Assembly (NCBI RefSeq): GCF_017901135.1 | Contig: NZ_CP072801.1 | Location: 2,787,501-2,851,500, forward strand | Direction of reading: 5' to 3' | From: Thiothrix litoralis | GTDB lineage: Bacteria; Pseudomonadota; Gammaproteobacteria; Thiotrichales; Thiotrichaceae | DNA: 64,000 nucleotides | In this document: positions 16,060 through 32,164 of the stretch, one piece after another | How positions within the stretch are numbered: the first letter of the stretch is position 1 | Layout: each line of letters starts with the position of its first letter | The notes under the pieces: model-generated | Databases searched by the model: none | What the model was told of the DNA's origin: nothing | What the model saw: the letters and a program-made list of their open reading frames with translations, nothing else | Program-made: the position numbers and the translations under genes

Positions 16060-16206
16060 GGGAACATCCTTGTTGTTCAGAATGACGCATTCTATGGCAT
16101 AGCCAATGACAGGCATACAAAGCGGTCATGCAAACGTGTAGAATAGATTATTTCAAAACAGCAACCCACTGATAAATATTACTTAATTAGCACTAAAGAA
16201 CCGGAC

Positions 16207-16649
16207 ATGGAAGCGGACAATATCGCGGAAGACCGAGGCGAATCCATCGGCATGATGGAGCCGCTACTGGTTTCAGGGACATCCCGTTTTCGCCCTGAAC
16301 TGGCTGACTTGGCTTTGGAACTGACCGCCAAATCTACCGCACTGCGTAAAAGCCTACCGGTAGGCATTGCACGTGCGTTGTCTGATCTGGTGCGCTCCAT
16401 GAACTGCTATTACAGCAACCTGATTGAAGGGCATGACACCCACCCGATTGACATCGAACGGGCGCTCAACGAGGACTATAGCACCGACTCCAGAAAGCGT
16501 GACCTGCAACTGGAGGCCAAAGCCCATATCGCTGTCCAGCAATGGAGCGGGGTGTACTGGCTACGGAATCGACACGCGCACCGCTGCGCTTGAATTTCCC
16601 GGCGATGTTGGCGGCACGTTGGATGCCTGGGCTGTTCCCCGAAAGGTAG
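16207..16649 (+). pseudogene. Collapsed Fic-family gene (internal deletion)
   Basis: The first about 110 codons encode a Fic N-terminal domain (LRKSLPVGIARALSDLV, YYSNLIEGHDTHPIDIERAL, LQLEAKAHIAVQQW). Shortly after, the frame ends at 16593, and another frame carries the usual Fic C-terminal ending APLRLNFPAML...RWMPGLFPER, with its stop at 16647-16649. The central Fic core with HPFxxGNGR is missing. The gene is therefore an internally deleted, frameshifted remnant. The short product would keep the inhibitory-type motif SNLIEG, matching [ST]xxxE[GN], but has no AMP-transfer site. Confidence 0.7.
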
Positions 16650-16754
16650 CGCAAACTACATGGGGAGTCCTGACCCTAAAGTGTATAAGGGCGAAAGCAA
16701 CGCAACAAAGAATAGGATACACTAACGCATTAATTGTTTACGCCCCCGGATACC

Positions 16755-19070
16755 ATGTCGCCCAACGCCAATCCCCACGTACCTCTCGCCCTGTTCGAGC
16801 ACCCCAAATACTGGGCAGAATGCTATGACACCTCGCCCTATCTCCCCATGAGTCGTGCGGAAATGGACGCGCTGGGCTGGGATTCCTGCGACATTATTAT
16901 CGTTACCGGGGATGCTTACGTCGACCACCCTTCCTTTGGCATGGCAGTGATCGGGCGGATGTTAGAAGCACAAGGTTTTCGCGTCGGCATCATTGCGCAA
17001 CCGGATTGGCATTCCAAAGACCCATTCATGGCACTGGGCGAACCCAACCTGTTCTTCGGCGTCGCGGCGGGCAATATGGACTCGATGATCAACCGCTACA
17101 CCGCCGACCGCAAGATGCGCTCCGACGACGCTTACACCCCCGGCAATGTTGGCGGCAAACGCCCCGACCGCGCCTCCTTGGTGTATTCACAACGCTGTAA
17201 GGAAGCCTACCCCGACGTACCGATCATTCTGGGCGGGATCGAAGCTTCATTGCGCCGCATTGCGCATTTCGATTACTGGCAGGAAAAAGTACGCCGATCG
17301 ATCCTGATGGATGCCGCCGCCGACCTGCTGCTGTACGGCAATGCCGAACGCGCCGTGGTCGAAATCGCCCACCGCATCGCTTCCGGCGAACCCGTTGCCA
17401 ACATTACCGACGTGCGCGGCACGGCCTTCATCCGCCGCGACACCCCAGCAGGCTGGATGGAAATCGACTCCAGCCGCGTCGACCAACCGGGCAAAATCGA
17501 CCGCATCATCAACCCCTACATCAACACCACCGAACTGTCGGAATGCGAAGTTGAAAAGCGCAATGTGCAGTGGTTTGAATACGAAGACCCGCGCAGTAAA
17601 CGCCCCGACGAACACAAACTGACCTTCCACCCGCGTGCCCGTTTGGATCGCGACCTGACCGTGATCCGCCTGCCCTCGTTTGAAAAAGTCAGCAAAGACA
17701 AGGTGCTGTACGCCCACGCCAACCGCGTGCTGCACCTGGAAACCAACCCCGGCAACGCCCGCGCCTTGGTGCAAAAACACGGCACGCAGGACATCTGGAT
17801 TAACCCGCCACCGATTCCACTGACCACGCCGGAAATGGATTTCGTGTTCGGCCTGCCCTACGCTCGTCAACCGCACCCGGCTTACGGCGGCGAACGCATC
17901 CCCGCCTATGAAATGATCCGTTTCTCGATCAACATCATGCGCGGCTGCTTTGGCGGCTGCACTTTCTGCTCGATCACCGAACACGAAGGCCGCATTATCC
18001 AGAACCGTTCGCAGGAATCCATCATCCGTGAAGTCGAGGACATCCGCGACAAAGTACCGGGATTTACCGGGGTCATTTCCGACCTCGGCGGCCCCACCGC
18101 GAACATGTACCGCCTCGCCTGCAAAGACCCGAAGGTGGAAGCTTCCTGCCGCAAACCAAGCTGCGTTTACCCCGGCATTTGCCAGAACCTCAACACCGAC
18201 CACACCGCGCTGAAAGAGCTGTACCGCACCGCCCGCAACTTGCCCGGTATCAAGAAAGTGCTGATCGGTTCCGGCCTGCGTTACGACCTCGCCATCCGCG
18301 ACCCCGAATACGTCAAGGAACTGGTCACGCACCACGTCGGCGGCTACCTCAAGATTGCCCCGGAACACACCGAAGATGCGCCGCTCTCCAAAATGATGAA
18401 ACCCGGCATCGGCGCGTATGACGAATTCAAACGCCTGTTCGAGAAATACACCAGGGAAGCGGGCAAAGAACAATATTTGATCCCGTATTTCATCGCCGCG
18501 CACCCCGGCACGTCCGACGAAGACATGCTCAACCTCGCGCTGTGGCTGAAGAAAAACGGCTTCCGCGCCGACCAAGTGCAAGCGTTTTACCCCTCGCCGA
18601 TGGCATCCGCCACCACCATGTACCACACCGACAAAAACCCGCTGCACAAAGTCACCTACAAAAGCGAAAAGGTGGAAACGGCGAAATCACCGGAACAGCG
18701 CAAGCTGCACAAAGCGTTTTTGCGCTGGCATGACCCCAAAAACTGGCCGCTGCTGCGCAAAGCAATGGCGGAGATGGGGCGGCAGGAACTGATTGGCGAT
18801 GGCGACAACCAGTTGATCCCGCATTACAAAGCGGGGGAGGAACAGTTGGTGTATGAGGCGCATCGGCGGAAGAATAAGGGCGGGGAGCATCAGAAGCGGG
18901 TGGGGAAACCTGCGCAAACGGCAGCGAGTAAACCGAATGCGGGTAAGCCGCAGGGTGGGAAGGTATTGACGCAGCATACGGGGTTGCCACCGAAGCCATT
19001 AATAAAAAATGAAAAACCCAGAAGTAATCACACACTATCAACTAAAAATAAACACCGGCCACGCCCATAG
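16755..19070 (+). CDS. ygiQ: YgiQ-family radical SAM protein, full-length copy
   Basis: A radical SAM enzyme of the YgiQ family (UPF0313); the reaction is not established. About 771 residues: the N-terminal UPF0313 domain ([32 protein letters not shown]), the radical-SAM core with CxxxCxxC at Cys398, Cys402 and Cys405 ([10 protein letters not shown]), the extra cysteines of [14 protein letters not shown], and a C-terminal YgiQ domain ending in a Lys/Gly/Pro-rich tail. The start could be ATG 16755 or TTG 16734, seven codons upstream. This is the only one of three ygiQ copies with an intact N-terminus. After HTGLPPKP the tail ([11 protein letters not shown]...) differs from the other copies because foreign sequence begins there. 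Confidence 0.92.
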
Positions 19071-19167
19071 CCCCCTATCCATAAAAATAATTAATAATTT
19101 ACATTGAAAAAAAAAACTGATTGTGGATAAAATAGTTTACTAACCAACAATCACAAGGGGCTAAATC

Positions 19168-21312
19168 ATGCCAACAACACAAAAAATCTCCCACAAATTC
19201 GTGGGAGCAGCTACCGTTTTGCTCATGACAAGTGTATCCATCCTCCATGCAGATGAAACTGTTTGGCAAGATGTTCCTCAAGCAGACATTGCCGCATCGA
19301 CCAGCACAATACGCAGCATGTTAGTTTCTGATACAATTACAGCCCAATTGGAAAAATACCGTTCACTGACATTAGATGAGAATCGTGTCAAATTACAATT
19401 ACTGTTGGCAGGCTCGGCTGCAAATGTAGTCCCCGGCACAGTTATCAGCTTACCACTGCCAGATAACACCTTTGCAAACGTAGAAATTACACCGATAGAG
19501 AATGCCTCCCCAGAAATTGCCAAACTAACCCCTAACTATCGTGCTTGGACAGTCAAGGGTACTGATGGAAAAATCATTGATGGCATTATCGACGTTAGCA
19601 ATACTGGATTCCATGCAATGCTGAACCTGTCTAATGGTGACACCACATTCATTGACCCAACTACATCAACGGGACAAAGGCAATACGCCAGCTTCAGCAA
19701 GCAAAGCAACACAAAAATGTTTGAACATCTCAATTGGACATGTGGGACACCTGATACCCAAACCGCCAGTTTTTCAACCACCGTACCAGCTTTAACAACC
19801 TCGTTAGACACAATAGACACCACCACCACATCTACTTACCGGGCTGCCGCCGCAAGCAGCCAACCACACGGAGAAAATGTCCTCATCTACGACCTAATTG
19901 TTGCTGCTACCGACGAATACACTAAGTCACATGGCGGGTCAAGGAATGCAGCACTCGAACAAATCAGACGGACTATTGACCGTGTGAATTTGGTGATGAA
20001 AACTGACCTTTCTATCCAACTGAGACTTGTGGGTGATGGTAGAATGGTCGCAGATGGCACAGGAAAAGACGGGTATTCAGATAGCAATGATACAAGTCTT
20101 ACCCATCTTAAGCAGCTACTTGATCAAAATGAAGCGGCATTTAAAGCAGCAGGTATACCATCCAGTAGCTATGACATTGGGCATTTGTTTGGGGGTATCA
20201 ATATCGGGGGCTTGGCGGATGTTGGGAGTGTATGTGACAGCTCAATATTAAGACCACATCTGAAAGCCCGTGGGTTCAGTGGCATAGGTAAGGGAGAGAT
20301 TGATGCCACCGTATCACTTGATGTAGTGGCACATGAATTAGGACATCAGTTGGGGGCAAACCACACATTCAATACTAATGGCTGTTCTTCACGGGAAGCA
20401 AAAACGGCCGTTGAACCTGGCAGCGGTAGTACGATCATGTCTTATGCTGGAAGGTGCAACCCATCAGACATCATTGTCCAGAATGCCGATGCCATGTACC
20501 ACAACAAATCCATCGCCGAAATACTCACTGCGACTCACTACGGCATCGACCGCGCCTGCGCCACGTCATATCAGATACTCAACAAGCGCACGAATAGCCA
20601 GAATAGAAATCCAACAATAACCCTCAGCAACACATCCTACCGAATTCCCCCTCAGACACCCTTCGTTCTGGATGCTGGACTTGGAAGCGATGCGGACCTT
20701 GACACCCTGAAATATTCTTGGGAACAGGAGGATACAGGTGTTGCATCAACAGCCAATGTTGACCTTGGCGGTAATGTTGTCACTGGCAATAATGCCCTGA
20801 TCCGCGCTCGCCTCCCCCAAGCAAGCCCCATACGCACAATCCCCCAAATGGCTGATCTAATGGCTGGCACGAAGAGTGCAGGCGAAGTTCTGCCCATCAC
20901 GGAAAGATCACTGACTTTCGTGTTAAATGCACGTGATGGTTACGGCGGTCTTGCCGGAAGAGTAGTAGTAGTCAATACCGTAAATCCACTTGCACCATCT
21001 GCCAGCAGACCATTCAAGGTCACTGCACCCAATACTACAAAGTTGACCCCCGGTGGTAAACAAACCGTCACGTGGGATGTAGCAGGGACTAACAATGCCA
21101 AAAATATCAACTGTCAAGCTGTAGATATTGCGGTCACCAGCGATGATGGCAAAAGCTTCACAACCCTGCTGTCTAGAGTGGCCAATAATGGTTCAGCACA
21201 GGTAACACTACCCCAAACCATTGGAACCAAAAGCCACATTAGGGTGAAGTGCAACAACAACATTTTCTTCAGCCTTTCCGCCACCACGCCACACGTGGCC
21301 AAACCTAAATAA
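19168..21312 (+). CDS. Secreted metzincin (reprolysin-like) metalloprotease
   Basis: 714 residues. A signal peptide (1-28, ending ILHA) leads into a propeptide-like region to about 230. The catalytic domain contains the zinc motif HELGHQLGANH (His389, Glu390, His393, His399) and a Met-turn (TIMSYAG) about 35 residues later, which defines a metzincin of the reprolysin-like group. Residues about 470-714 hold beta-sandwich modules (NRNPTITLSNTSY, FKVTAPNTTKLTPGGKQTVTWDVAGT) common in secreted bacterial proteases. It lies between the full and the first truncated ygiQ copy, in a segment of lower G+C than its surroundings, and is followed after 13 bases by a lipoprotein gene. Confidence 0.85.
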   Translation: MPTTQKISHKFVGAATVLLMTSVSILHADETVWQDVPQADIAASTSTIRSMLVSDTITAQLEKYRSLTLDENRVKLQLLLAGSAANVVPGTVISLPLPDNTFANVEITPIENASPEIAKLTPNYRAWTVKGTDGKIIDGIIDVSNTGFHAMLNLSNGDTTFIDPTTSTGQRQYASFSKQSNTKMFEHLNWTCGTPDTQTASFSTTVPALTTSLDTIDTTTTSTYRAAAASSQPHGENVLIYDLIVAATDEYTKSHGGSRNAALEQIRRTIDRVNLVMKTDLSIQLRLVGDGRMVADGTGKDGYSDSNDTSLTHLKQLLDQNEAAFKAAGIPSSSYDIGHLFGGINIGGLADVGSVCDSSILRPHLKARGFSGIGKGEIDATVSLDVVAHELGHQLGANHTFNTNGCSSREAKTAVEPGSGSTIMSYAGRCNPSDIIVQNADAMYHNKSIAEILTATHYGIDRACATSYQILNKRTNSQNRNPTITLSNTSYRIPPQTPFVLDAGLGSDADLDTLKYSWEQEDTGVASTANVDLGGNVVTGNNALIRARLPQASPIRTIPQMADLMAGTKSAGEVLPITERSLTFVLNARDGYGGLAGRVVVVNTVNPLAPSASRPFKVTAPNTTKLTPGGKQTVTWDVAGTNNAKNINCQAVDIAVTSDDGKSFTTLLSRVANNGSAQVTLPQTIGTKSHIRVKCNNNIFFSLSATTPHVAKPK

Positions 21313-21325
21313 CAGGACGTTAACC

Positions 21326-21934
21326 ATGAAAACTTATGCTTTTCCTCTACTCTTGCTTGGCACATTGGTATTGAATGCTTGTACTACCTATCCAACACCA
21401 CAGGACAGCAATCTGATACCTGTAAAATCTGAGTCCCAACAACCACAGGCAAAGCCACCAATATCCGTCACGCAAGGAAGTTCCCCTTTCATAGTGATCG
21501 GGTATGTCGCCTACCTTGACCCAAAACTGCGGGCGGACTACATCTCCGAGGAGGAATATCCACGGTTAATAACCTTATTGCAGAACCGGGATGCCAAGGC
21601 TGATGCCAAGGCAACTGCTGCCAAAGGAGAATATTATATTTTGTATAATGGTGCATCCAGTGACGAGGCAGTACTCCGTTATCCACCATTTGGTCGGGTT
21701 GGGTATCCCCTTGGTTATCAACCCCCTCCAAATTCTTTGGAGCGGCTAACTGATGACAAAGAGGTTGCAGAATTGGAAGATCAATCACTTTTAAGCAAAA
21801 TATTAAGTGGTTGTCCGAGCAAACATACTCAAGGATGGCCTCAACTTGGGGAGGCTTTTGGTAATTATGCAGTACATTGGAATCAAGTAATGGTGTTGGC
21901 ATGTGCTGAACGGATGGGATTAAAGAAAAAGTAG
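21326..21934 (+). CDS. Small lipoprotein paired with the metalloprotease
   Basis: 202 residues with a lipoprotein signal (LVLNAC, acyl Cys19) and a Pro/Gln-rich linker. The mature part has no recognised family; visible features are IVIGYVAYLDPKLRADYISEEEY, a Tyr/Pro/Gly-rich centre (RYPPFGRVGYPLGYQPPP) and two C-terminal cysteines (SGCPSK, VLACAERM). It starts 13 bases after the protease stop and ends just before a hairpin terminator, so the two genes form a two-gene operon. It may be an inhibitor, an anchor or a maturation partner of the protease; that is inferred from position only. Confidence 0.65.
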   Translation: MKTYAFPLLLLGTLVLNACTTYPTPQDSNLIPVKSESQQPQAKPPISVTQGSSPFIVIGYVAYLDPKLRADYISEEEYPRLITLLQNRDAKADAKATAAKGEYYILYNGASSDEAVLRYPPFGRVGYPLGYQPPPNSLERLTDDKEVAELEDQSLLSKILSGCPSKHTQGWPQLGEAFGNYAVHWNQVMVLACAERMGLKKK

Positions 21935-21953
21935 CGGTGAGAGATCATTAGTT

Positions 21954-21984
21954 CAGGGTAGCTTTTGTAGCTACCCTGTTCTTC
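21954..21984 (+). terminator. Hairpin terminator after the protease operon
   Basis: A perfect 10-bp stem (CAGGGTAGCT / AGCTACCCTG) with loop TTTGT is followed by TTCTTC. It is placed 20 bases after the lipoprotein stop and about 20 bases before the start of homology to ygiQ, so it also marks the right end of the inserted segment. Confidence 0.7.
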
Positions 21985-21996
21985 AGCTTAGCGGCA

Positions 21997-23946
21997 GGCA
22001 AACGCCCCGACCGCGCCTCGCTGGTGTACTCGCAACGCTGCAAAGAAGCCTACCCCAATGTACCGATCATTCTGGGCGGCATCGAAGCCTCGTTACGCCG
22101 CATCGCCCACTTCGATTACTGGCAGGAAAAAGTCCGCCACTCGATTCTGGTGGACGCAGCCGCTGACCTGCTGCTCTACGGCAACGCCGAACGCGCCGTG
22201 ATCGAAGTCGCCCACCGACTGTCACGCGGCGAAGCGGTGGAAACCATCACCGACGTGCGCGGCACGGCCTTCATCCGCCGCAACACCCCGGCAGGCTGGA
22301 TGGAAATCGACTCCAGCCGCGTCGACCAACCGGGCAAAATCGACCGCATCATCAACCCCTACATCAACACCACCGAACTGTCGGAATGCGAAGTCGAAAA
22401 ACGCAATGTGCAGTGGTTTGAATACGAAGACCCGCGCAGCAAACGCCCCGACGAACACAAACTGACCTTCCACCCGCGTGCCCGTTTGGATCGCGACATG
22501 ACCGTGATCCGCCTGCCCTCGTTTGAAAAAGTCAGCAAAGACAAGGTGCTGTACGCCCACGCCAACCGCGTGCTGCACTTGGAAACCAACCCCGGCAACG
22601 CCCGTGCACTGGTGCAAAAACACGGCACGCAAGACATCTGGATCACGCCACCACCGATTCCACTGACCACGCCGGAAATGGATTTCGTGTTCGGCCTGCC
22701 CTACGCTCGCCAACCGCACCCGGCTTACGGCGGCGAACGCATCCCCGCCTATGAAATGATCCGTTTCTCGGTGAACATCATGCGCGGCTGCTTTGGTGGC
22801 TGTACCTTCTGCTCGATCACCGAACACGAAGGCCGCATTATCCAAAACCGTTCCAAGGAATCCATCATCCGCGAAGTGGAAGACATCCGTGACAAAGTGC
22901 CCGGTTTCACTGGCGTCATTTCTGACCTTGGCGGGCCGACTGCGAATATGTACCGCCTCGCCTGCAAAGACCCGAAGGTAGAAGCTTCCTGCCGCAAGCC
23001 GAGTTGCGTTTACCCCGGCGTGTGCCAAAATCTCAACACTGACCATAGCGCCTTAAAAGAACTCTACCGCGAAGCCCGCGCCTTACCCGGCGTGAAAAAG
23101 GTCTTAATCAGCTCCGGCCTGCGCTACGACTTGGCTGTACTTGACCCCGAATACGTCAAGGAACTGGTCACGCACCACGTCGGCGGCTACCTCAAGATTG
23201 CCCCGGAACACACCGAAGATGCGCCGCTCTCCAAAATGATGAAACCCGGCATCGGCGCGTATGACGAATTCAAACGCCTGTTCGAGAAATACACCAAGGA
23301 GGCGGGCAAGGAACAATACCTGATCCCGTACTTCATCGCCGCGCACCCCGGCACGTCCGACGAAGACATGCTCAACCTCGCACTGTGGCTAAAGAAAAAC
23401 TGCTTCCGTGCTGATCAGGTGCAGGCGTTTTACCCCTCACCGATGGCCTCCGCCACCACCATGTACCACACCGACAAAAACCCGCTGCACAAAGTCACCT
23501 ACAAAAGCGAAAAGGTAGAAACGGCGAAATCACCGGAACAGCGCAAGCTGCACAAAGCGTTTTTGCGCTGGCACGACCCGAAAAACTGGCCGTTGCTGCG
23601 CAAAGCGATAGCGGAGATGGGGCGGCAGGAACTGATCGGCGATGGCGACAACCAGTTGATCCCGCATTACAAGGCGGGTGAGGAACAGTTGGTGTATGAG
23701 GCGCATCGGCGCAAGAATAAGGGCGGGGAGCATCAGAAGCGGGTGGGGAAACCTGTCGCGGCTGCAACGACTGGCAAACCGAATTATGGTAAACCTGCGC
23801 AAAGTGTAGCGACTGGTAAACCCAATACTGGCAAACCCGCGCAAGCAGCAGCGAGTAAATCGAATGCGGGTAAGCCGCAGGGTGGGAAAATGTTGACGCA
23901 GCATACGGGGTTGCCGCCGAAGCCATTTACAAAAAAGAAACACTAA
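21997..23946 (+). pseudogene. ygiQ: ygiQ second copy, 5'-truncated
   Basis: From 21997 the DNA matches the full ygiQ copy beginning at codon about 135 ([14 protein letters not shown]) and stays in frame to a stop at 23944-23946. The N-terminal UPF0313 segment, about 135 residues, is absent and foreign sequence precedes it, so it is a truncated copy; an internal GTG at 22024 could allow expression. The radical-SAM motif [10 protein letters not shown] and the C-terminal domain are intact. The tail has an enlarged GKP-repeat region ([20 protein letters not shown]). Identity with copy 1 is patchy: almost identical blocks alternate with clearly diverged ones. After HTGLPPKP the sequence changes to FTKKKH and stops. 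Confidence 0.85.
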
Positions 23947-23957
23947 ATAGGGAAATA

Positions 23958-25289
23958 GTGAATATGGATACTTATGCCAATATAAGCATTAATGAATACA
24001 CTATTTCGTCTTCAAAAAATAATATAAACCCTTATTTAATGATAATTTTTGTCGAATCTGAAAAGCTGCGCTCTATAGAAAAAGATAAAAATATCTTTGA
24101 TGATGAACCTGTTGAAGAAATAATAACTTGGAAATATATAACTTCCGTAGCCAAAGCTATAGATAGGCTAGAAATTATCGGCTACACACTAGATAAAATA
24201 AAAAAATCTTATAAAATTTCTTACACTGATTCAATAGATAAATTCTTAGAAAAGAGATTTCACTCCACTCTTTCAAAAACATTAAATGAAATACTAGAAG
24301 AAGGAAAGATAAGGAAAAAACTCAAAGACTTAACAGTGGATGATTTTATAGAAGCCTTTAAGCAACTAAAGGAAAATCAAATTGATTTAATAGCTTTGAA
24401 GAACTCAAGAATTCCTAATAAAGGAATTTCATTCCTTGCCAATTATATATTAGCATACAGTAGCGGAAAAGAAACATTTGACTATCCAGATAATAATCAA
24501 CGTTGTTATTTGAGATGCATTCTAGAAGCTTTTGACCCTAGCGATGTTATTAGCTTAGATTTAACATGGCTAGATCTGGCTGAAACTCTTGATTGCAAAG
24601 GTGAGATTAGAAATGATAGCATCAACGAACTAAATAAAAATATTGCCGAGAACTCTAAAATACTCATATTAACCGAAGGAAAAACAGATAAAGAAATTCT
24701 AGAGAGATCATTGCGCTTACGATATCCACACTTAGTAGATTATTATTTATTTATGCCTTTTCATTTTGGTGAGCTTGATGAAAAACATGAAATTGAGAGT
24801 TCAGCTTCTCTTCTGGTTAAAAGAATAGAAAGCTTTGTAGCTTGTTGTATAAATAATCGAGTAATTGGCTTATTGGACAATGATAAAGCAGGAATAGAAG
24901 CAGAGAGCAAAATAAATAAAAAAAATTTACCCTCCAATATAAAACTAATTCATTATCCTGATATTTCTCTAGCAAATGAGTATCCAGCACACGATAAACA
25001 GACCAATGACCAACCGTCAACAACCATGTGTAATATCAATGGCAAAGCTGCTAGTATTGAAATTTACTATGGAAATGATATTTTAACAGAAGAAAATAAT
25101 TTAATTCCAATTCAGTGGACTGAAAAAAAAGATCAAGGAAATTTCCAAAAAAATAAAAAAAAGCAACTTTTCAAAAAAATGCAAGAAAAACTTAGCATAT
25201 GCGAAAAAGATCATACGAAAATCAATAACTATGACTGGTCGGGCATTGATGCTATTTTTAAAGCCTTATTTCGATGCTTCCAAGAATAA
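23958..25289 (+). CDS. AT-rich HEPN/Toprim-type protein, putative defence protein
   Basis: 443 residues, from GTG 23958 or ATG 23964. The C-terminal half has Toprim motifs: LILTEGKTD with Glu240, and GLLDNDKAG with Asp307 and Asp309, separated by 66 residues. This is the Glu / Asp-x-Asp metal site used by OLD-type nucleases and related enzymes. The N-terminal 220 residues are helical and resemble the domain that precedes Toprim in HEPN/Toprim-associated proteins; that match is by memory of the family. Base composition is far more AT-rich than the neighbours, and codon use differs (many AAA, AAT, ATA), which indicates recent transfer. It stands alone 12 bases after a truncated ygiQ. A nuclease role in anti-phage defence is inferred, not shown. 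Confidence 0.7.
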   Translation: MNMDTYANISINEYTISSSKNNINPYLMIIFVESEKLRSIEKDKNIFDDEPVEEIITWKYITSVAKAIDRLEIIGYTLDKIKKSYKISYTDSIDKFLEKRFHSTLSKTLNEILEEGKIRKKLKDLTVDDFIEAFKQLKENQIDLIALKNSRIPNKGISFLANYILAYSSGKETFDYPDNNQRCYLRCILEAFDPSDVISLDLTWLDLAETLDCKGEIRNDSINELNKNIAENSKILILTEGKTDKEILERSLRLRYPHLVDYYLFMPFHFGELDEKHEIESSASLLVKRIESFVACCINNRVIGLLDNDKAGIEAESKINKKNLPSNIKLIHYPDISLANEYPAHDKQTNDQPSTTMCNINGKAASIEIYYGNDILTEENNLIPIQWTEKKDQGNFQKNKKKQLFKKMQEKLSICEKDHTKINNYDWSGIDAIFKALFRCFQE

Positions 25290-25309
25290 AATTACTGACT
25301 GGTGAGTAA

Positions 25310-25548
25310 CTACACCCAATCCTCCAACAACAACCCCTGCACTCTCTCAAACTCACGGACATTGTGCGTCACCAATATCGCTTTCAACGAGCGGACATGA
25401 GCAGCAATCAACGTATCATAATGCCCAATCGGTTGCCCCAACTGCATTAATTCACAGCGCACCAACGCCGCCTATTGCGATTGCTCTTCACCCCAATCCA
25501 GCACTTGAATGTATTTGAGGAAACTATTGAGAGTAAACGACTTTCATT
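25310..25548 (-). pseudogene. Dead vapC (PIN-domain toxin) remnant
   Basis: On the minus strand the reading LNSFLKYIQVLDWGEEQSQ, a stop (TAG), then AALVRCELMQLGQ, GHYDTLIAAHVRSLKAIL and VTHNVREFERVQG gives the C-terminal two-thirds of a VapC-type PIN ribonuclease ending at 25310. The first Asp and strand of the PIN fold are missing and an in-frame stop lies near 25470, so the toxin is not functional. No antitoxin gene remains beside it. Confidence 0.75.
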
Positions 25549-25620
25549 ATTCGACAACACCTGTCATCTTGTTTTAAAGTTCTCGCTATCAGCTTCTTAA
25601 CCGTAGGATGACCCCATGCC

Positions 25621-26025
25621 ATGACCACATTGCAAGTCAATTCAGCTATTGAACTGGATCAGGTGTTGCGCGGTGTTGAAATGCTCGACACGCCAGAGTT
25701 GGAACGTTTCTTTTCGCAAGTCGGTATCCTGTTGGCACGCCGCAAAGCACCCAGTATCCCGCAACGGGAAGCGGTATTGCTGCAACAAATCAATACGCCG
25801 TTGCCCGCGCAAACGCTGGCAGACTATCAGGATCTCAGCCAAAAATTGCGCGATGAGAATATTACGCCAGCCGAACATGCTCACTTACTAACCTTGGTGG
25901 ATGTTGTCGAACTGGCAGATGCCGAACGGATGCAGCATTTATTTGAGCTTGCCCAACTGCGCAACGTACCACTGGATACGCTAATGCAACAGTTAGGGAT
26001 TCAGACACCAGCACCTTATGTCTAA
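25621..26025 (+). CDS. Small helical protein, partner of HNH nuclease
   Basis: 134 residues, mainly helical, rich in Leu, Gln and Glu (LDTPELERFFSQVGILLARRKAP, LADYQDLSQKLRDENITPAEHAHLLTLVDVVELADAERMQHLFELAQLR). No domain is recognised. Its last 8 bases overlap the HNH nuclease gene, so the two are translationally coupled; such gene pairs are common beside this HNH type. An AGGATG site precedes it. A role as immunity or specificity partner is inferred from the overlap alone. Confidence 0.6.
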   Translation: MTTLQVNSAIELDQVLRGVEMLDTPELERFFSQVGILLARRKAPSIPQREAVLLQQINTPLPAQTLADYQDLSQKLRDENITPAEHAHLLTLVDVVELADAERMQHLFELAQLRNVPLDTLMQQLGIQTPAPYV

Positions 26026-26440
26026 ACGCCATCTTTCCAGCGCGGAACAAAGCGCGATTATTGAGCGTGCGGGTGGACGTTGCGAGTATTGCCAAAGCCA
26101 GATGGAATATTCGGGGCAATCGTTCGAGTTTGATCATATCGCCCCTATCAGCCGTGCGGGCGAAACATCGCTCGAAAATCTAGCCTTAGCCTGCGGTGGC
26201 TGTAATCGCCACAAATCCAATAAAGTGCAAGGCACTGATCCTGCGACAGGTGATAGGGTTGAGCTGTTTAATCCGCGCCAGCAACAATGGGAAGCCCATT
26301 TTGGTTGGACGGATGATTACACGCAAATGATTGGTTTGACAGCAATCGGGCGAGCAACCGTAGCAGCGTTAAAACTCAATCGTATGGGCTTGGTGAATAT
26401 GCGGCGTGTGCTCTGTATGGCGGGCAAGCATCCAGCGTAG
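26018..26440 (+). CDS. HNH endonuclease
   Basis: 140 residues with a standard HNH/beta-beta-alpha-metal motif: zinc-knuckle CEYC (about 27-30), [33 protein letters not shown] with the catalytic His in DHI, and the second CGGC knuckle. It is a short single-domain nuclease that would act on DNA; the target is not known. It is coupled to the 134-residue gene upstream and lies between the dead vapC and the third ygiQ fragment. The overall location suggests defence or mobile-element cargo. Confidence 0.88.
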
Positions 26441-26457
26441 GCAACAAGGATAAAGGG

Positions 26458-27030
26458 GGTAAGGAACAATACCTGATCCCGTATTTCATCGCCGCGCACC
26501 CCGGCACGTCCGACGAAGACATGCTCAACCTCGCGCTGTGGCTGAAGAAAAACGGCTTTCGCGCCGACCAAGTGCAAGCGTTTTACCCCTCACCGATGGC
26601 CTCCGCCACCACCATGTACCACACCGACAAAAACCCGCTGCACAAAGTCACCTACAAGAGCGAAAAAGTGGCAACCGCGAAATCACCGGAACAGCGCAAG
26701 CTGCACAAAGCGTTCCTGCGCTGGCACGACCCGAAAAACTGGCCGCTGCTGCGCAAAGCAATGGCGGAGATGGGGCGGCAGGAACTGATCGGCGATGGCG
26801 AGAACCAGTTGATCCCACATTACAAAGCGGGTGAGGAACAGTTGGTGTATGAGGCGCATCGGCGCAAGAATAAGGGTGGAGAGCATCAGAAGCGGGTGGG
26901 GAAACCGAATACGAAGCCGCAGGGTGGGAAAATGTTGACGCAGCATACGGGGTTGCCACCGAAGGCGCGGGCGGATATGGGCGGGAAGCCGAAGCCAACG
27001 GGGAAACCCAAACAGCGTGGTGGTAGATAG
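26458..27030 (+). pseudogene. ygiQ: ygiQ third copy, 3' fragment only
   Basis: Homology to ygiQ begins abruptly at [10 protein letters not shown] (codon about 570 of the full copy) 18 bases after the HNH stop and continues in frame to a stop at 27028-27030. Only the last about 190 residues are present, so the radical-SAM core is lost. After HTGLPPK this copy alone continues into [21 protein letters not shown], which is probably the original chromosomal end of ygiQ. Confidence 0.85.
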
Positions 27031-27085
27031 CCGCAAACCAACCAGCGTAGTATCATCATCTGACACCCTTAATAGGTAAACGATT

Positions 27086-27112
27086 ATGTACGCAGTAGAA
27101 TTTGAATCTTTC
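27086..27112 (+). pseudogene. Possible start of an antitoxin gene cut by the TnpB element
   Basis: An ATG with an AGGT site upstream begins MYAVEFESF, which resembles the start of small antitoxins of the type M-x-T-V-E-F-E-x-F. The TnpB element starts directly after codon 9 and no continuation was found on its far side. Too short for certainty. Confidence 0.35.
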
Positions 27113-28511
27113 TTGACATCCTCCCCTCCCTAAAGGAAGGGGATTCCTACTGCATTCAGCTAGATAGCTGACTTACTTCGGCGGGTTCCTGCTTCATCGA
27201 GCGGCTTAAGGCCGCATCTCCACAAGCTAACAAGCGGTATCCCCGCTCTTTGATATTGATCGCGCCGACATGATCGGCATGATTTTCATAGTGGCATTTC
27301 ACGCACACAAACCGTGCTTGCGTCTGGCGGTTATCTGCCGATACATGATGACATTCTGGGCATTCCTGACTGGTGTAATGCGGTGGCACAGCGAACAACA
27401 TGCCGCCTTTCCATGCCAGCTTGTAGTCGAGTTGCCGTCGAAATTCACCCCAGCCTTGGTCGAGAATGGCTTTGTTTAAGCCGGACTTTTGGGCAACGTT
27501 CTTGCCGGGGTTTTCTGCCGTGCCTGCCGCTGACTTCGACATATTACCGACCTGCAAATCTTCGATGAACACGAGCGCGTGGTTTTGGCTGAGCGTGGTC
27601 GTCGCCTTGTGCAGGAAATCGCGGCGGGCGTTGGCAATTTGCATGTGAATTTTTTGAACGTTGGCTTTGGCCTTTTTCCAGTTGTTGCTGAACTTTTGTT
27701 TGTGCGCCATGCGCCGTTGGTATTTGGCGAGTTTGGCGGCTTTGGTTTTGAAGCTGTTGCGCGGTTCGAGGTACGTACCGTCGGAGAACGTGGCAAAACG
27801 GGCTATACCAAGGTCGATGCCGATGGCTGTCGTGGCTTGAGAAGCGATTTTTTCCACTTCGCGCTGGGTTTGGATGCTGACAAACCATTTCCCGCTTTTG
27901 CTGGAAACCGTGACATTGCGTAGTTCTCCCAACACATCGCGGCTATTGCGGTAGCGTATCCAGCCCAGTTTCGGCAAGAAAAGTCGGCTATTGCCTGGGT
28001 CGAGCTTGATTTGTTTGGGGTCAGGATAACGGAAACTGTCACCGCTGCCTTTGCGCTTGAAACGGGGGAAGTCGGCACGTTTGGCGAAGAAGTTTTGGTA
28101 AGCCTTGTCGAGGTCTTTGAGCGCGTGTTGCAGGGGATGAACAGGGGCATCTTTCAGCCACGGGGTTTCCACACCGTTGCGCCATGCGGTCAGGTGCTTG
28201 GCCATTGCGACGTAACCGATGAATTTTTCACCTGCTTCATGATTGGCTTGCTGCAACGCTAACGCCCTGTTGTACACGAAGCGACATGACCCAGCAAAAC
28301 GGCGTAGTTGACGCTGTGTTTCACCATTGGGCATGAGTTCGTATTTGAAGGCTTGTAGTCGTTGCATCTTCGGAGTGTAGCTAAACAAGAGCGGCTTGAG
28401 TGGGTATTCTGCGTTAAACTGCGCGGATTATCCGACAAAACTACCGAACATAGGGCGGCTTCGCCACCCGCGCTATCCTCCCCGACTTGAAGGACGGGGT
28501 TTGCCGCGCAA
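27113..28511 (-). mobile_element. IS1341-type (tnpB-only) element A
   Basis: Boundaries come from comparison with the second element in this window. Both share TTGAC(A/T)TCCTCCCCTCCCT at the end downstream of tnpB and CGCGCAA at the other end. The downstream end carries a hairpin (27123-27142, CCCC...GGGG with TAAA loop) and the upstream end another (28480-28499), the subterminal imperfect palindromes of the IS200/IS605 superfamily. Only tnpB is present, so movement would need a TnpA supplied elsewhere. The transcript end around 27113-27160 is where the guide (omega) RNA of TnpB is expected. Confidence 0.85.
27156..28367 (-). CDS. tnpB: TnpB, RNA-guided nuclease of IS605/IS1341 element A
   Basis: About 403 residues from ATG 28367 (a TTG seven codons upstream is also open). 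The N-terminal OrfB helix-turn-helix region (FKYELMPNGETQRQLRRFAGSCRFVYNRAL) is followed by a RuvC domain with the catalytic acids in GIDLGIARFATFSDG, FIEDLQVGNMSKSA and NHADHVGAINIKERG, and a four-cysteine zinc finger (CPEC...CVKC). All catalytic positions are present, so it may be an active RNA-guided DNA nuclease. It shares only family-level similarity with the second TnpB in the window. Confidence 0.93.
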   Translation of the reverse strand: MQRLQAFKYELMPNGETQRQLRRFAGSCRFVYNRALALQQANHEAGEKFIGYVAMAKHLTAWRNGVETPWLKDAPVHPLQHALKDLDKAYQNFFAKRADFPRFKRKGSGDSFRYPDPKQIKLDPGNSRLFLPKLGWIRYRNSRDVLGELRNVTVSSKSGKWFVSIQTQREVEKIASQATTAIGIDLGIARFATFSDGTYLEPRNSFKTKAAKLAKYQRRMAHKQKFSNNWKKAKANVQKIHMQIANARRDFLHKATTTLSQNHALVFIEDLQVGNMSKSAAGTAENPGKNVAQKSGLNKAILDQGWGEFRRQLDYKLAWKGGMLFAVPPHYTSQECPECHHVSADNRQTQARFVCVKCHYENHADHVGAINIKERGYRLLACGDAALSRSMKQEPAEVSQLSS

Positions 28512-28584
28512 CCTGATCAATCGAATCTTCCCCCTTTGATTTAAACTAATTGTAGGTGTCATCCTGAACCGTCGGGGTGAAGCA

Positions 28585-28620
28585 GGTGGTGTTTGATGCC
28601 ATGCCTCGGCGTGTGGAAGC
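28585..28620. repeat. Inverted copy of the fdhD 3' end (36 bp perfect)
   Basis: The 36 bases from GGTGGTGTTTGATGCC to GTGTGGAAGC occur here on the plus strand and, reverse-complemented, at 29561-29596 inside the end of fdhD (codons for VVFDAMPRRVEA). Weaker similarity extends about 12 bases further upstream. The two copies flank the regulator gene 28655-29554 as an inverted pair. It is a relic of a duplication or inversion, not a gene. Confidence 0.85.
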
Positions 28621-28654
28621 CAATGCTGCCATTCAAGCACCTCCAACGTTAAAA

Positions 28655-29554
28655 TCAATCTTCCCCCCACAACAGCTTCCCCGTCTCGCTCAAATCATAG
28701 CCCTCATACGTCAGCACCATGCGCTGGGTCACATCCGAGCGCAACCGCTGCAACAGCCCCTGAAACAAATGCCGGAACCAGATATTGCGCGGCAAGGCAA
28801 TATCGAACGACTCCCACCCATAGCTAATGAAAGCCAGCCCGTTTTCCTGTGCCGCCGCCTTCGCCCCCGGGGCAATATCAGCCTCGCGCATCGACACCAG
28901 CGCCGCTGCCTCGCGTTCGGAATAGGCTATCTGGCGCATATCCAGATCGTCGACATTCAGGTTTTCGCGGCTCAGCACTTCCATCAGGAAACGTTGCGAA
29001 CCTGCCCCCTGCTGGCGTTCCACCCAGCGCAGCGGCTGGCGAAAAATCTGCTGCTTATCATCCCCAACCCGCTCCAGCGCCTCGGGGTGAATCATCAAGC
29101 CCTGTTCGCGCCGGTACAAATGCACCAACACCCACAAATCCGCCTGCCGGAACTGGCGCAACAAGGCCGGGTGACGCAAACCACTTTCCTCATTCGGCCC
29201 CCAGTGCAAGCAACAAGCATCCGCGCGGCGCATGTGCAACAGCTTCAAGCCCATGCTAGTGCCGGTCGGAAAATAGCTGACCAGCGCATTGGGTCCCACC
29301 GCATTGGTGTAAGCCATTGCCACCCGATACAACAACGGATCGTCACTACCCACAATGGAAAGCCGGTCGCTAAGCAAACCGTTATAGGACGATTCCGTCA
29401 GCCAACGATCCACCAAAGTACGCGGAAACAGCCATTTGCCGGTCACCTTGGTGGCTGGAATCTGATTATCGCGCACCAATTCGTAGACTTTCTTTTCATT
29501 CAGATGCAAGTAATCAGCGACCTGCTTGACGCTCATGTAAGTCGTCTGGTTCAT
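28655..29554 (-). CDS. Excisionase-type HTH regulator with PBP-like ligand domain
   Basis: 299 residues. Residues 7-55 form an excisionase/MerR-type winged helix (MSVKQVADYLHLNEKKVYELVRDNQIPATKVTGKWLFPRTLVDRWL). Residues about 65-290 are a periplasmic-binding-protein-like domain (LSIVGSDDPLL, NALVSYFPTGTSMGLKLLHMRRADACCLHW, RQQGAGSQRFL), as in one-component regulators linked to molybdate/tungstate and formate dehydrogenase genes. The start overlaps the fdhD stop (ATGA), so it is the third gene of moaA-fdhD-regulator. The ligand is probably an oxyanion or a cofactor-related molecule; that is inference from family and context. Confidence 0.8.
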   Translation of the reverse strand: MNQTTYMSVKQVADYLHLNEKKVYELVRDNQIPATKVTGKWLFPRTLVDRWLTESSYNGLLSDRLSIVGSDDPLLYRVAMAYTNAVGPNALVSYFPTGTSMGLKLLHMRRADACCLHWGPNEESGLRHPALLRQFRQADLWVLVHLYRREQGLMIHPEALERVGDDKQQIFRQPLRWVERQQGAGSQRFLMEVLSRENLNVDDLDMRQIAYSEREAAALVSMREADIAPGAKAAAQENGLAFISYGWESFDIALPRNIWFRHLFQGLLQRLRSDVTQRMVLTYEGYDLSETGKLLWGED

Positions 29555-30402
29555 GCATCCGCTTCCACACGCCGAGGCATGGCATCAAACACCACCCGTT
29601 CCACCCCGTTGTACACCAGAAAATGCCGCCCCTTGGCACGGGCGATGAGGATTACTCCCAACTTTTTCGCCAGCGCCAAGCCCATTTCAGTCACGCCGGA
29701 ACGCGATAACAACACCGGCACACCCATTTGCGCCACCTTGATGACCATTTCCGAAGTCAGCCGCCCGGTGGTGTAAAACAGCTTGTCGCCACCCACGATA
29801 CCGTGCAGCCACATGTGCCCGGCGATGGTATCGACCGCATTGTGCCTGCCCACGTCTTCCACAAAACTGAGGATGTCAGTGCCCGCACACAGCGCACAAC
29901 CATGCACCGCCCCCGCCCGCCGGTAGATTTCGTTGTATTCGGTGAGCGCGTGCAAGGTGTCATAAAGCTGCGACTGCTGCACCGTGACGGCGGGCAGTTG
30001 CAACTGATCCAGCCTGTCCATCAGGTTGCCAAACATGGTTCCCTGTCCGCAGCCGGTGGTGACGGTTTTGCGACCCAGTTTTTCATCCAACCCCTCCACA
30101 CCCTGAAAGGTGGTGACGGCGACTGATTCGGTTTCCCAATCCACCTGAATGGCCTTGAGCTGGGCGAGTTCGGTAATCAGGTTCTGGTTGCGTAACCAGC
30201 CTAATACCAGCAATTCTGGCTGACTGCCCATGGTCATCAGGGTGAGGATTTCGCGCTTGTCGAGGTAAATCGTCAGCGGGCGTTCCGCAGAAATGTAGCC
30301 TTCCCGCGCTTGCCCGTATTCGTCCACCGGCTGCACACAGATAGTGGTATCCAGCGAAGCATTGCTCAACTGTGGATACGGCGTAGCGGGTGGCTCAGAC
30401 AT
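29551..30402 (-). CDS. fdhD: Formate dehydrogenase accessory sulfurtransferase FdhD
   Basis: FdhD moves sulfur from a cysteine desulfurase to the bis-MGD cofactor of formate dehydrogenase in the cytoplasm. 283 residues, normal length. The catalytic CxxC loop is in HGCALCAGTDIL, and GRHNAVDTIAG and FYTTGRLTSEMV are family signatures. It sits between moaA and the regulator, with its AGGAGG site just inside the end of moaA. Its last 36 bases are repeated in inverted orientation at 28585-28620. Confidence 0.95.
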   Translation of the reverse strand: MSEPPATPYPQLSNASLDTTICVQPVDEYGQAREGYISAERPLTIYLDKREILTLMTMGSQPELLVLGWLRNQNLITELAQLKAIQVDWETESVAVTTFQGVEGLDEKLGRKTVTTGCGQGTMFGNLMDRLDQLQLPAVTVQQSQLYDTLHALTEYNEIYRRAGAVHGCALCAGTDILSFVEDVGRHNAVDTIAGHMWLHGIVGGDKLFYTTGRLTSEMVIKVAQMGVPVLLSRSGVTEMGLALAKKLGVILIARAKGRHFLVYNGVERVVFDAMPRRVEADA

Positions 30403-30404
30403 GA

Positions 30405-31412
30405 CTAACCTCCTGTAGCACTCATGTGGCGGAAAATAACCGGTTGGGCTTTCAAGTCGAAATCGTGACCCTCGGGTTTGAGCGCCATCGACGCCAGCAA
30501 GGCTTCACGCAGCTTGGCATCATCACCGGGGTTGGCACGCAATACGCGGCGTAAATCCAGCGAATGTTCCTGCCCTAGGCACAGCAGCAAACGCCCTTCC
30601 GCCGTGACCCGCACCCGGTTGCAGGTATCGCAGAAATTATGGCTATGCGGCGAAATGAACCCCACCCGGCTATCCGTACTGCCGCGCTGGAAATAGCGGG
30701 CTGGCCCGCCGGTATTCTCATCCACTCCATGCAGCTCCATCCCGGTGCGCAAATCACGGAGGATTTCATCGCTGGAATAATAAGCTTCGGCACGGTCATG
30801 ATCGCCGATCACGCCCAGCGGCATTTCTTCGATGAAACTGATGTCCATGCCGCGTTGGTGGGCAAAATTGACCAGATCGGTGACTTCATCGTGGTTACGG
30901 TGCTTCAGCACTACCGCATTCAGCTTGACCCGCTGGAAACCGGCTTCCAGTGCCGCATCAATCCCCGCCAGCACCTTGTTGATGTCGCCGAGGCGGGTGA
31001 GTTTGTGGAAACGTTCCGCATCCAGCGTATCGAGGCTGATATTGACGCGGGTCACGCCCGCCACTTTCAAGTCTTTGGCGTAACGGGTCAACTGCGTACC
31101 GTTAGTAGTCAGGGTCAGGTCACGCAAGCCCTCCAGTTGCCCCAAGTCCTCAAACAGCTTGAGGATATTGCGGCGTACCAGCGGTTCACCGCCGGTAATG
31201 CGAAGTTTATGCACGCCGAGAGCGACGAAGGCTTTGCCCAGACGCGCCATTTCCTCCAGCGTCAGCAATTGCTCGCGCGGCACAAAGGTCATGTCTTCTG
31301 ACATGCAATACACGCAGCGCAGGTCACAGCGGTCAGTGACCGACAGCCTGACATAAGTGATTTGGCGACCAAAACGGTCAACCAGTTGGGTAGGGTGGGC
31401 AGTGCTGCTCAT
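30405..31412 (-). CDS. moaA: GTP 3',8-cyclase MoaA
   Basis: MoaA is the radical-SAM enzyme that starts molybdenum cofactor synthesis by rearranging GTP. 335 residues. The SAM cluster is CxxxCxxC at Cys29, Cys33 and Cys36 (TDRCDLRCVYC); the C-terminal second cluster is in FCDTCNRVRVTAEGRLLLC; the protein ends in SATGG with the terminal Gly-Gly needed for activity. It begins the moaA-fdhD-regulator operon divergent from the formate dehydrogenase operon, with both promoters in 31413-31660. No moaC, moaD or moaE was seen in this window. Confidence 0.95.
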   Translation of the reverse strand: MSSTAHPTQLVDRFGRQITYVRLSVTDRCDLRCVYCMSEDMTFVPREQLLTLEEMARLGKAFVALGVHKLRITGGEPLVRRNILKLFEDLGQLEGLRDLTLTTNGTQLTRYAKDLKVAGVTRVNISLDTLDAERFHKLTRLGDINKVLAGIDAALEAGFQRVKLNAVVLKHRNHDEVTDLVNFAHQRGMDISFIEEMPLGVIGDHDRAEAYYSSDEILRDLRTGMELHGVDENTGGPARYFQRGSTDSRVGFISPHSHNFCDTCNRVRVTAEGRLLLCLGQEHSLDLRRVLRANPGDDAKLREALLASMALKPEGHDFDLKAQPVIFRHMSATGG

Positions 31413-31500
31413 TCAATTTTCTCCGTCTGGTGTATTGTTCCTAGCAAGAACCATACCGACTGTAACAGGCCATTCAAATCCAAGGGAATACTTTATACCC

Positions 31501-31562
31501 CAAGTACCGGGCGTAACAAATTGACCCATGTCAAGCGACTGAACCGGACAAAATGACCCAAC
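31501..31562 (-). repeat. Repeat resembling an IS21-type end, upstream of fdh operon
   Basis: Read on the minus strand this stretch has two tandem units, GGGTCATTTTGTCCGGTTCA... and GGGTCAATTTGTTACGCC..., the repeated-unit pattern seen at ends of IS21-family elements. A related stretch with GGGACATTTTGTC occurs at 34141-34192 in the same orientation. No istA/istB genes lie between them, so these would be relics. The palindrome TTGACCCATGTCAA (31521-31534) lies inside. Confidence 0.45.
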
Positions 31563-31611
31563 ACCCCCGCATTAAACACCACCAAACCGACTTATTCCCC
31601 CCTTCGCCCGC

Positions 31612-31627
31612 TGGCACGTAACTTGCT
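31612..31627 (+). promoter_or_regulatory. Sigma-54 promoter of the formate dehydrogenase operon
   Basis: TGGCACGTAACTTGCT matches the -24/-12 consensus TGGCAC-N5-TTGCW exactly, with the GG and GC 10 bases apart. The -12 element ends 33 bases before the GTG start of the DUF3305 gene, giving a short leader with a GGAGG ribosome site. It requires an enhancer-binding activator; the NtrC-type regulator at 44403-45728 is the obvious candidate. Confidence 0.85.
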
Positions 31628-31660
31628 CAAGTCTTTAAAGAACGCTTTCGGAGGAAAACC

Positions 31661-32164
31661 GTGAATCCATCAACCCTGCAAGATGCGCCCCTTTTACCCC
31701 AACGGCTGGCGGTATCCGTCATTCTGGAAAAACGTCCGTCGATCAGCCGCTGGGCTGATGCCTATTGGACAGCCACCGGCGTGGTGGTCGGTACCAATGA
31801 ACACCACACCGTTACCCTGTTGCATGAACAGGACGGCATCCAGCAATACCTTTACCCCGGCCTCAGTGTCAGCCTGCACCGCGACGAATGCGACGGTTAC
31901 TACCACAACCTGCAATCGCCGCAACCGGGCTGCTACATCATCGCCAACCTCGCGGCTGACGGCACGCCCTCCCCATACATCGTCACCCTCAGTTTCGACG
32001 AAGCCAATTCCTACCTGCAAGGCAGCGCGGAAGTGTACGCCGTACCGATTCCACCCGAACTCTACCGCTGGACAGAAGCCTACGTGCTGGAACATTACGC
32101 GCCAGAAAAAAAGAAAAAACGCCGCCTGACCGACTGGCAAAACGACAACGACCGGGGACATTAA
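31661..32164 (+). CDS. DUF3305 protein of formate dehydrogenase cluster
   Basis: 167 residues, GTG start with GGAGG 6 bases upstream. DUF3305 proteins occur almost only at the head of periplasmic formate dehydrogenase operons and are thought to help enzyme maturation; the biochemical role is unknown. Visible landmarks: LAVSVILEKRPSISRWADAYWTATGVV, LYPGLSVSLHRDECDGYYHNL and the C-terminal basic stretch EKKKKRRLTDWQND. It is a soluble cytoplasmic protein and is followed after 2 bases by the DUF3306-ferredoxin gene. Confidence 0.85.
   Translation: MNPSTLQDAPLLPQRLAVSVILEKRPSISRWADAYWTATGVVVGTNEHHTVTLLHEQDGIQQYLYPGLSVSLHRDECDGYYHNLQSPQPGCYIIANLAADGTPSPYIVTLSFDEANSYLQGSAEVYAVPIPPELYRWTEAYVLEHYAPEKKKKRRLTDWQNDNDRGH

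Follow-up and report, generated by a model that had tools for sequence, protein, structure and literature searches.

A divergent HEPN/Toprim-NTD1 protein in a ygiQ array of Thiothrix litoralis: a candidate one-gene phage-defence nuclease

An AT-rich open reading frame (23958-25289, + strand) in a 64,000-nucleotide stretch of the Thiothrix litoralis genome, referred to here as the window, raises the question of what its product is and what it might do for its host. A first-pass annotation of this DNA had proposed a solitary protein of the HEPN/Toprim type and a candidate defence gene. Residues are numbered here from the ATG at 23964, so that each number is two lower than in that annotation (240/307/309 become 238/305/307). 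The gene and its parts are as follows.

23964..25289, + strand: NTD1-Toprim gene (P0001, 441 aa; alternative GTG start at 23958)
23964..24641, + strand: N-terminal domain, residues 1-226 (alpha+beta; Pfam PF18871 HEPN_Toprim_N match at residues 1-199)
24654..25289, + strand: Toprim nuclease domain and C-terminal extension, residues 231-441 (from alignments, AlphaFold and fold search)
24675-24677, + strand: codon of E238, Toprim site
24687-24689, + strand: codon of D242, Toprim site
24876-24878, + strand: codon of D305, Toprim site
24882-24884, + strand: codon of D307, Toprim site
25053-25061, + strand: codons of S364 to E366, candidate metal B residues
25158-25160, + strand: codon of K399, candidate catalytic lysine

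The ATG at 23964 was taken as the start because most relatives begin at the column of M1 (M in 94 of 99 aligned rows), the start of each relative in the alignment being the first start codon of its ORF. The gene is real: 500 shuffles of the segment never gave an open run above 124 codons, whereas the actual sequence reaches 445, and the protein shares 30 invariant columns with seven diverse relatives aligned to it. Its GC content is 29.9% (GC3 23.1%) compared with 54.2% for the window and 58.0% for the full-length ygiQ gene described below, in agreement with the foreign base composition remarked upon at first pass; the gene is foreign and AT-rich, with a frame intact over 441 codons. A scan for promoters and terminators gave a result no better than chance.

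The N-terminal domain was assigned by a Pfam scan to HEPN_Toprim_N (PF18871; residues 1-199, E 7.5e-9, 36.3 bits with a curated gathering cut-off of 25). This is the HEPN/Toprim-NTD1 defined by Anantharaman et al. (2013) as an alpha+beta domain of ~240 aa, for which the fusion partners given are two HEPN families, TOPRIM or an Mrr-like nuclease, and the architecture NTD1+TOPRIM already appears in Table 2 of that paper (PMC3710099). The AlphaFold models contain a domain of this size and class: strands at 4-9, 12-18, 34-40 and 52-61 and several helices were obtained both for the whole protein and for residues 1-226, and the domain modelled alone (pLDDT 86.5, pTM 0.85) was mixed alpha/beta and not the simply helical domain supposed at first pass. 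The HEPN-type label is likewise unsupported, since 'HEPN/Toprim' denotes a domain that stands beside HEPN or beside Toprim and implies no HEPN for the T. litoralis protein, and since the sole R-x4-6-H found by motif scan in the protein is RLRYPH at 251, inside the Toprim half. A HEPN domain in the N-terminus was rejected on this motif, the R-x4-6-H of the HEPN RNase superfamily being absent from the N-terminal domain.

The best PDB sequence match of the single protein was the HEPN toxin 7ae6_A, covering residues 67-156 but without significance (E 0.52); the N-terminal domain may have a remote link to HEPN. A profile search of the PDB with this domain returned nothing significant (best E 0.41), and comparison with solved folds gave no convincing match. 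Foldseek reached E 0.55 at best and VIA a Z of 3.6 over 64 residues, with no HEPN chain among the listed matches of either, whose scores were weak throughout. Matches of this strength to a predicted model would establish neither that the fold is new nor that HEPN is absent. The comparison of the N-terminal part with profiles and structures that had been suggested at first pass thus yielded the PF18871 match and no listed HEPN fold.

The protein resembles HEPN/Toprim-NTD1 (PF18871) in an N-terminal domain scoring above the cut-off and in the fusion to Toprim, and its length of 441 aa compares with a family median of 432 aa (range 183-548, partial rows included). It differs in its divergence, with identity to relatives of at most ~36% and unusual residues at four conserved positions. 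It counts as a divergent representative of a family already known and named, and a new kind of system is unsupported at present. No model of PADLOC, NCBIfam or PHROGs matched it. A housekeeping Toprim protein (topoisomerase, DnaG, RecR or RNase M5) was considered and rejected, as no such profile matched in Pfam or NCBIfam and the distribution is sporadic; a housekeeping Toprim match, which at first pass was held to tell against a defence gene, was found in none of Pfam, PADLOC, NCBIfam and PHROGs. The family name was found in the open-access literature only in the 2013 paper (PMC3710099), although papers writing it only with a slash could be missed, and no experiment or activity was found there for any NTD1-Toprim family member, in keeping with the earlier remark that the single-gene version is little studied.

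Two adjoining PF18871 proteins of 307 and 267 aa were observed in genome G604 (L014:551-1474 and 1384-2187). As these are too small to hold the Toprim half, the N-terminal domain seems to occur without Toprim as well. The family set used here omits four window-derived duplicates, and L014-L016 fall below the family profile cut.

The Toprim half carries the EGxxD motif as TEGKTD (237-242) and the DxD motif as DND (305-307). In the alignment with 98 other rows, E238, D305 and D307 are each conserved in 98 of the 99 and D242 in all 99. The complete metal site claimed at first pass (E238, D305 and D307) is therefore present, together with D242. I365 and E366 are each found in 98 of 99 rows, W385 in 97 and K399 in 90 (3 R, 6 gaps), and position 364 is S in 35 of the 36 rows of clade A, to which the T. 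litoralis protein belongs, and A in 57 of the 63 other rows. The genome scan by which relatives were collected used the pattern [ND][IV]NG[RKL]A..IE, which selected for both I365 and E366, so that the conservation at 357-366 arises partly by construction; EGxxD, DND and K399 were unselected in the 80 kept relatives.

Toprim_2 appeared in the Pfam scan at E 0.033, below cut-off and so only as a hint, and a whole-family profile found no significant relative in the PDB (best E 0.1, T7 primase). The whole protein was modelled with AlphaFold from 70 sequences (pLDDT 89.0, pTM 0.90), the alignments for structure prediction using 69 of the 79 eligible relatives, with near duplicates making up most of those omitted. 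The top solved matches to residues 231-441 were three retron-Eco2 chains, at Z 8.7 (157 residues aligned, 3.5 Å), 8.3 and 8.1. Behind these, within one Z unit of each other, came the PARIS chain 8ux9_A (6.7; 306 residues, which we take to be AriB), T7 primase (6.4), OLD 6p74 (6.1) and a small Toprim protein (6.0), and RNase M5 (6tpq) scored 5.6. The Eco2 value of 8.7 stands out only modestly, barely exceeding the 7-8 common for models without clear relatives, and is strengthened by its agreement with the residue pattern. Foldseek with the whole model found nothing in the PDB at E <= 0.001, retron Eco2 being first at 3.9e-3, and the best match among viral structures was a DnaG Toprim protein (E 0.063).

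The residue pattern itself can be set beside two described sites. In the retron-Eco2 (Ec67) RT-Toprim effector, whose Toprim is an RNase, the residues given are E374/D460/D462, D378/S513/E515 and K562 (PMC12405507); in Bp OLD, of the class 2 group that cleaves DNA, they are E400/D455/D457, E404/T506/E508 and K562 (PMC6755086). By residue order and spacing, E238/D305/D307, D242/S364/E366 and K399 of the T. litoralis protein appear to parallel both. With Eco2 the protein shares the Toprim domain and C-terminal extension and the same order of metal and lysine residues; it differs in having an unrelated N-terminal domain where Eco2 has a reverse transcriptase and msDNA. No reverse transcriptase domain was found in it by Pfam scan, and no Rfam match reached the gathering score in 15000-32000. 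With class 2 OLD and Gabija GajA it shares the two-metal set of E, E/D+4, DxD, [S/T]xE and Lys; OLD differs in its N-terminal ABC ATPase and is the weaker structural match (6p74, Z 6.1), and no ATPase family was found in the T. litoralis protein by Pfam scan at E up to 1. PARIS AriB, which cuts tRNA and is held by the ATPase AriA (PMC12409363), shares the Toprim nuclease fold (Z 6.7 to 8ux9_A). No AriA-like ATPase partner was found in 23926-25314 or among seven nearby scanned proteins; the sole scanned ABC ATPase (12475-13248) lies 11 kb away among transporter genes.

The likeness to the OLD group seen at first pass holds insofar as an OLD chain with the same site pattern is among the matches, although the Eco2 RNase is nearest and PARIS, T7 primase and OLD are tied behind it. 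Because the catalytic part is structurally nearest to the Eco2 RNase effector, an RNA substrate is no less likely than a DNA one; with the PARIS and OLD chains tied and the Z gaps small, the fold alone does not decide between the two. A defence nuclease that has DNA as its target, cutting or nicking it on the model of OLD or GajA, would account for the shared metal A, metal B and lysine set, which in class 2 OLD serves DNA cleavage (PMC6755086), and for the place of OLD 6p74 (Z 6.1) among the structural matches, tied with the PARIS chain. We consider it a somewhat unlikely alternative, given that the Eco2 RNase chains come first at Z 8.1-8.7, a gap which in itself settles no substrate, and that an OLD-like ABC ATPase is absent.

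Our preferred reading, to which we give a probability of roughly 0.55, is that this single gene encodes an abortive-infection or phage-defence nuclease, probably RNA-cutting, whose nuclease activity, RNA substrate, gating and anti-phage action we infer. The Toprim half would act as a two-metal nuclease, with E238/D305/D307 binding metal A, D242 and S364/E366 binding metal B; K399 is the candidate for the catalytic lysine. The N-terminal half would most likely restrain this nuclease until it senses some consequence of phage infection, upon which the nuclease would be released. Once freed, the nuclease might cut RNA, probably tRNA or mRNA, and so stop the infected cell before the phage is completed.

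Relatives of the protein were sought in several collections of genomes and mobile elements. Matches were found by tblastn in 47 of 72,556 plasmid records and in 1 of 50,697 phage records, and the pattern scan covered genomes of 84,980 species and gave 138 confirmed relatives, 80 of which were kept (alignment-based). A scan of viral contigs gave five loci, for which a DND-type pattern was also used, and the scan of genome contigs with the single protein as query found no relative. PF18871 occurs in 9 of 398 genomes of the phylum (8 over cut-off) and in 3 of 274 genomes of the class, T. litoralis included in both counts, and within the genus the other 15 genomes gave no NTD1-Toprim match. One clade-B query matched 13 of 5426 E. 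coli genomes, 5 of these over >80% of the query length. The sampled loci carry 15 phylum labels, many of them from MAGs. The homologues are sporadic in occurrence, with a mobile distribution.

In a tree of 94 rows (five rows under 350 aa being omitted) the protein lies within a 36-row multi-phylum clade (100/100), while the other 58 rows form a separate clade that is mostly proteobacterial. Rows from Bacillota and Bdellovibrionota stand closest to it (85/88), and its own branch has 1.51 changes per column, which makes its exact place unsure. Four family-conserved positions are altered in it: 265 is P where 88 of 99 rows have D, 344 is D (95 have G), 345 is K (94 have P) and 352 is S (94 have G), some of them adjoining insertions where the alignment is unsure. 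The long branch and these four changes, together with the decayed pieces that the gene adjoins (the VapC-like relic and truncated ygiQ copies listed below), would be compatible with a decaying or repurposed relic without present function. We regard a relic as very unlikely here, since the reading frame runs unbroken for 441 codons at 30% GC, the catalytic residues, S364 and K399 are kept, and the fold is predicted with confidence (pLDDT 89).

The neighbourhoods of relatives were surveyed in 23 annotated stretches, comprising 18 plasmid records (8 kb each side where possible) and five E. coli chromosomes (10 kb), in which genes were counted by feature name only, as anti-phage, restriction, abortive-infection or toxin-antitoxin. 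The phage record that matched carries no annotation. At least one such named gene was present in 11 of the 23 stretches, a raw count with no matched control, and in 8 of 19 after removal of near copies. Plasmids and islands are rich in toxin-antitoxin genes in any case. The genes concerned were qatABCD, beside the homologue in two E. coli stretches (near copies); Shedu, Swt1 HEPN and three-component ABC in one plasmid stretch; SIR2 and three-component ABC in one plasmid stretch; AbiE in three plasmid stretches, two of them near copies; a restriction endonuclease with RelBE in one plasmid stretch and RelBE in another; and HipA in two E. coli stretches (near copies). Fic, DUF2326, an AbrB/MazE-like gene, and DUF1016 and Rpn nucleases were left uncounted. 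A lack of defence neighbours among homologues, which according to the first-pass annotation would speak against a defence gene, was thus not what these stretches displayed. The 12 stretches without a named gene include both clade-A plasmid records in the tree and a near twin of the first, and the neighbourhood evidence is thinner within the subfamily of the T. litoralis protein.

PADLOC comparison of 134 neighbour proteins from 35 clade-A loci gave matches to 320 families, and 125 of 139 proteins from 18 of 20 arbitrarily placed stretches in the relatives' genomes gave 133; no enrichment is drawn from these tallies, because overlapping models inflate both (reverse transcriptases; Dnd- and Pbe-named models). 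Among the Pfam matches listed for the same 134 neighbours, in raw and uncontrolled counts, were Eco57I and TIR_2 (2 each) and DpnI, HSDR_N, SWI2_SNF2, AbiJ_NTD3 and Cap4_nuclease (1 each), as well as integrases, transposases and metabolic families. A PDB search with the protein encoded upstream of one Bacillota relative gave no match. One E. coli homologue lies inside a prophage between intE and icd, and in the Aeromonas record NZ_CP077204.1 (L190:7329-8621) a homologue is embedded among Mu-like structural genes but on the strand opposite to theirs. The latter stands directly after the tape measure gene, with two hypothetical genes separating it from a Gp36-type gene of the Mu-like prophage, which is a typical site for a phage-carried extra gene.

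Over 108 loci the commonest neighbour clusters within 4 kb were AbiEii (10) and AbiEi (8), and with no cluster exceeding 10 loci the gene is usually solitary. Seven Rhizobiales loci (L082, L090, L091, L093, L097, L099 and L136) have the order abiEi, abiEii, NTD1-Toprim, with abiEii ending three bases before the last; this arrangement is possibly a regulated form of the same effector. A toxin belonging to a toxin-antitoxin or plasmid-addiction module, serving maintenance of a mobile element rather than phage defence, would be compatible with this operon-like AbiEi/AbiEii arrangement recurring in one subclade (AbiEii 10 of 108 loci, AbiEi 8 of 108) and with the 47 of 72,556 plasmid records matched. 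It is distinctly unlikely in our estimation, as no neighbour cluster is common to more than 10 of the 108 loci, the 1.39 kb segment of the T. litoralis gene contains no partner ORF of at least 80 aa, and homologues adjoin Qat and Shedu genes and occur in prophages.

The local setting of the phage-defence candidate is an array of ygiQ copies with cargo between them, laid out as follows; the ygiQ label is presumptive and rests in part on the DUF3362 match of the third copy, and the VapC/PIN label is likewise presumptive, given by motif.

16734..19070, + strand: full-length ygiQ, array head (YgiQ-like radical-SAM protein)
19168..21312, + strand: first cargo, reprolysin-like metallopeptidase (Reprolysin_4, E 1e-26)
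21326..21934, + strand: first cargo, 202-aa protein (lipoprotein-like start by eye; no Pfam match)
21993..23946, + strand: second, 5'-truncated ygiQ copy (query residues ~139-760)
23926..25314, no strand: ~1.39 kb segment from the last shared ygiQ base to the VapC-like relic (homology boundaries)
25315..25531, - strand: C-terminal relic of a VapC-like PIN toxin gene (matched by two L170 stretches at 93.5% and 91.2% identity)
25621..26025, + strand: 134-aa protein (no convincing Pfam match; identical in two congeners)
26018..26440, + strand: HNH endonuclease, 140 aa (PF01844, E 1.5e-13)
26453..27030, + strand: third ygiQ copy with DUF3362 (query residues ~575-754)
27156-28388, - strand: IS605 OrfB/TnpB gene, directly behind the last ygiQ piece (Pfam scan)

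Homology to ygiQ ends at 23922-23925 and homology to congener L170 resumes at 25315, and the NTD1-Toprim ORF is the only ORF of at least 80 aa within 23926-25314. The location inside a ygiQ cargo array had been recognised at first pass, and the array is real and recurs in the genus. The accompanying statement that the gene lies next to toxin and nuclease genes stood in part: the HNH nuclease at 26018-26440 is real, whereas the 'toxin' is the C-terminal relic of a VapC-like gene, for which matching ORFs are present in a congener.

An extra ygiQ piece of at least 100 residues was found in 8 of 16 genomes of the genus, one more having small pieces only, and in the arrays (window 16734-27030; L166-L175) cargo lies between 5'-truncated ygiQ copies, the majority of them with a common 3' end. 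Outside the genus, no ygiQ array on one contig was found in the 37 ygiQ-bearing genomes among 47 of the family, many assemblies being fragmented, and three of these genomes had two ygiQ pieces resembling frame or contig breaks. The 134-aa and HNH pair recurs in G003, G004 and G010 at 98-100% and 91-99% identity, before a ygiQ piece starting at residue 575, with other ORFs separating it from the preceding ygiQ piece. Its occurrences (window 25621-26440; L168:10712-11531, L170:6397-7217, L172:4028-4847 and L175:5024-5840) extend at ~80% identity to a fourth congener, and it is possibly a nuclease/immunity pair or a recent transfer.

Congener cargo, sampled as 22 proteins chosen by size from six congeners (20 per library), comprised a DrmD-like helicase and a Sacsin-domain giant, a TIR protein and an nSTAND1-WD40 protein, and also DUF6402 proteins, a subtilase, transposases, metabolic enzymes and several matchless proteins. 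In genome G008 (L171:3035-13155) the 2494-aa Sacsin-domain protein was observed as ygiQ cargo beside the 880-aa DrmD-like helicase (PADLOC E 3.1e-267), and the two are possibly an unusual DISARM-like pair. As the array is a general accessory site with mixed cargo that includes some defence genes, membership of it is weak evidence for defence.

In a weakly supported tree of the ygiQ 3' copies (6 of 28 inner branches starred) only those of G014 group together, which would fit import from relatives. No integrase was found among the scanned cargo proteins of the window; IS605-, IS66- and DDE_3-type transposase genes lie in or beside some arrays. A wider proposal, which we put forward tentatively and hold with less confidence than the phage-defence reading of the gene itself, is that NTD1-Toprim proteins constitute a widespread one-gene immunity, in which a sensor or gate of a fold unseen in solved structures would control an RNase of the Eco2/AriB type without ATPase, reverse transcriptase or antitoxin. 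According to the same proposal, the genus would collect such genes and other accessory genes behind ygiQ by repeated ygiQ recombination, each event leaving a 5'-truncated copy and requiring no dedicated integrase.

The family occurs in loci of 15 phylum labels, some beside defence systems or in prophages, yet no experiment on it was found in the open-access literature. Retrons, PARIS, Gabija and OLD are known to employ Toprim effectors, with sensing performed by an ATPase or a retron (PMC12405507, PMC12409363). If the phage-defence reading is true, a stand-alone, self-gated Toprim protein encoded by a 1.3 kb gene would be a very simple such system, with the AbiE link in one subclade providing a second testable clue. 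The ygiQ arrays of the genus would be a tractable case of a housekeeping gene serving as an accumulation site for accessory genes.
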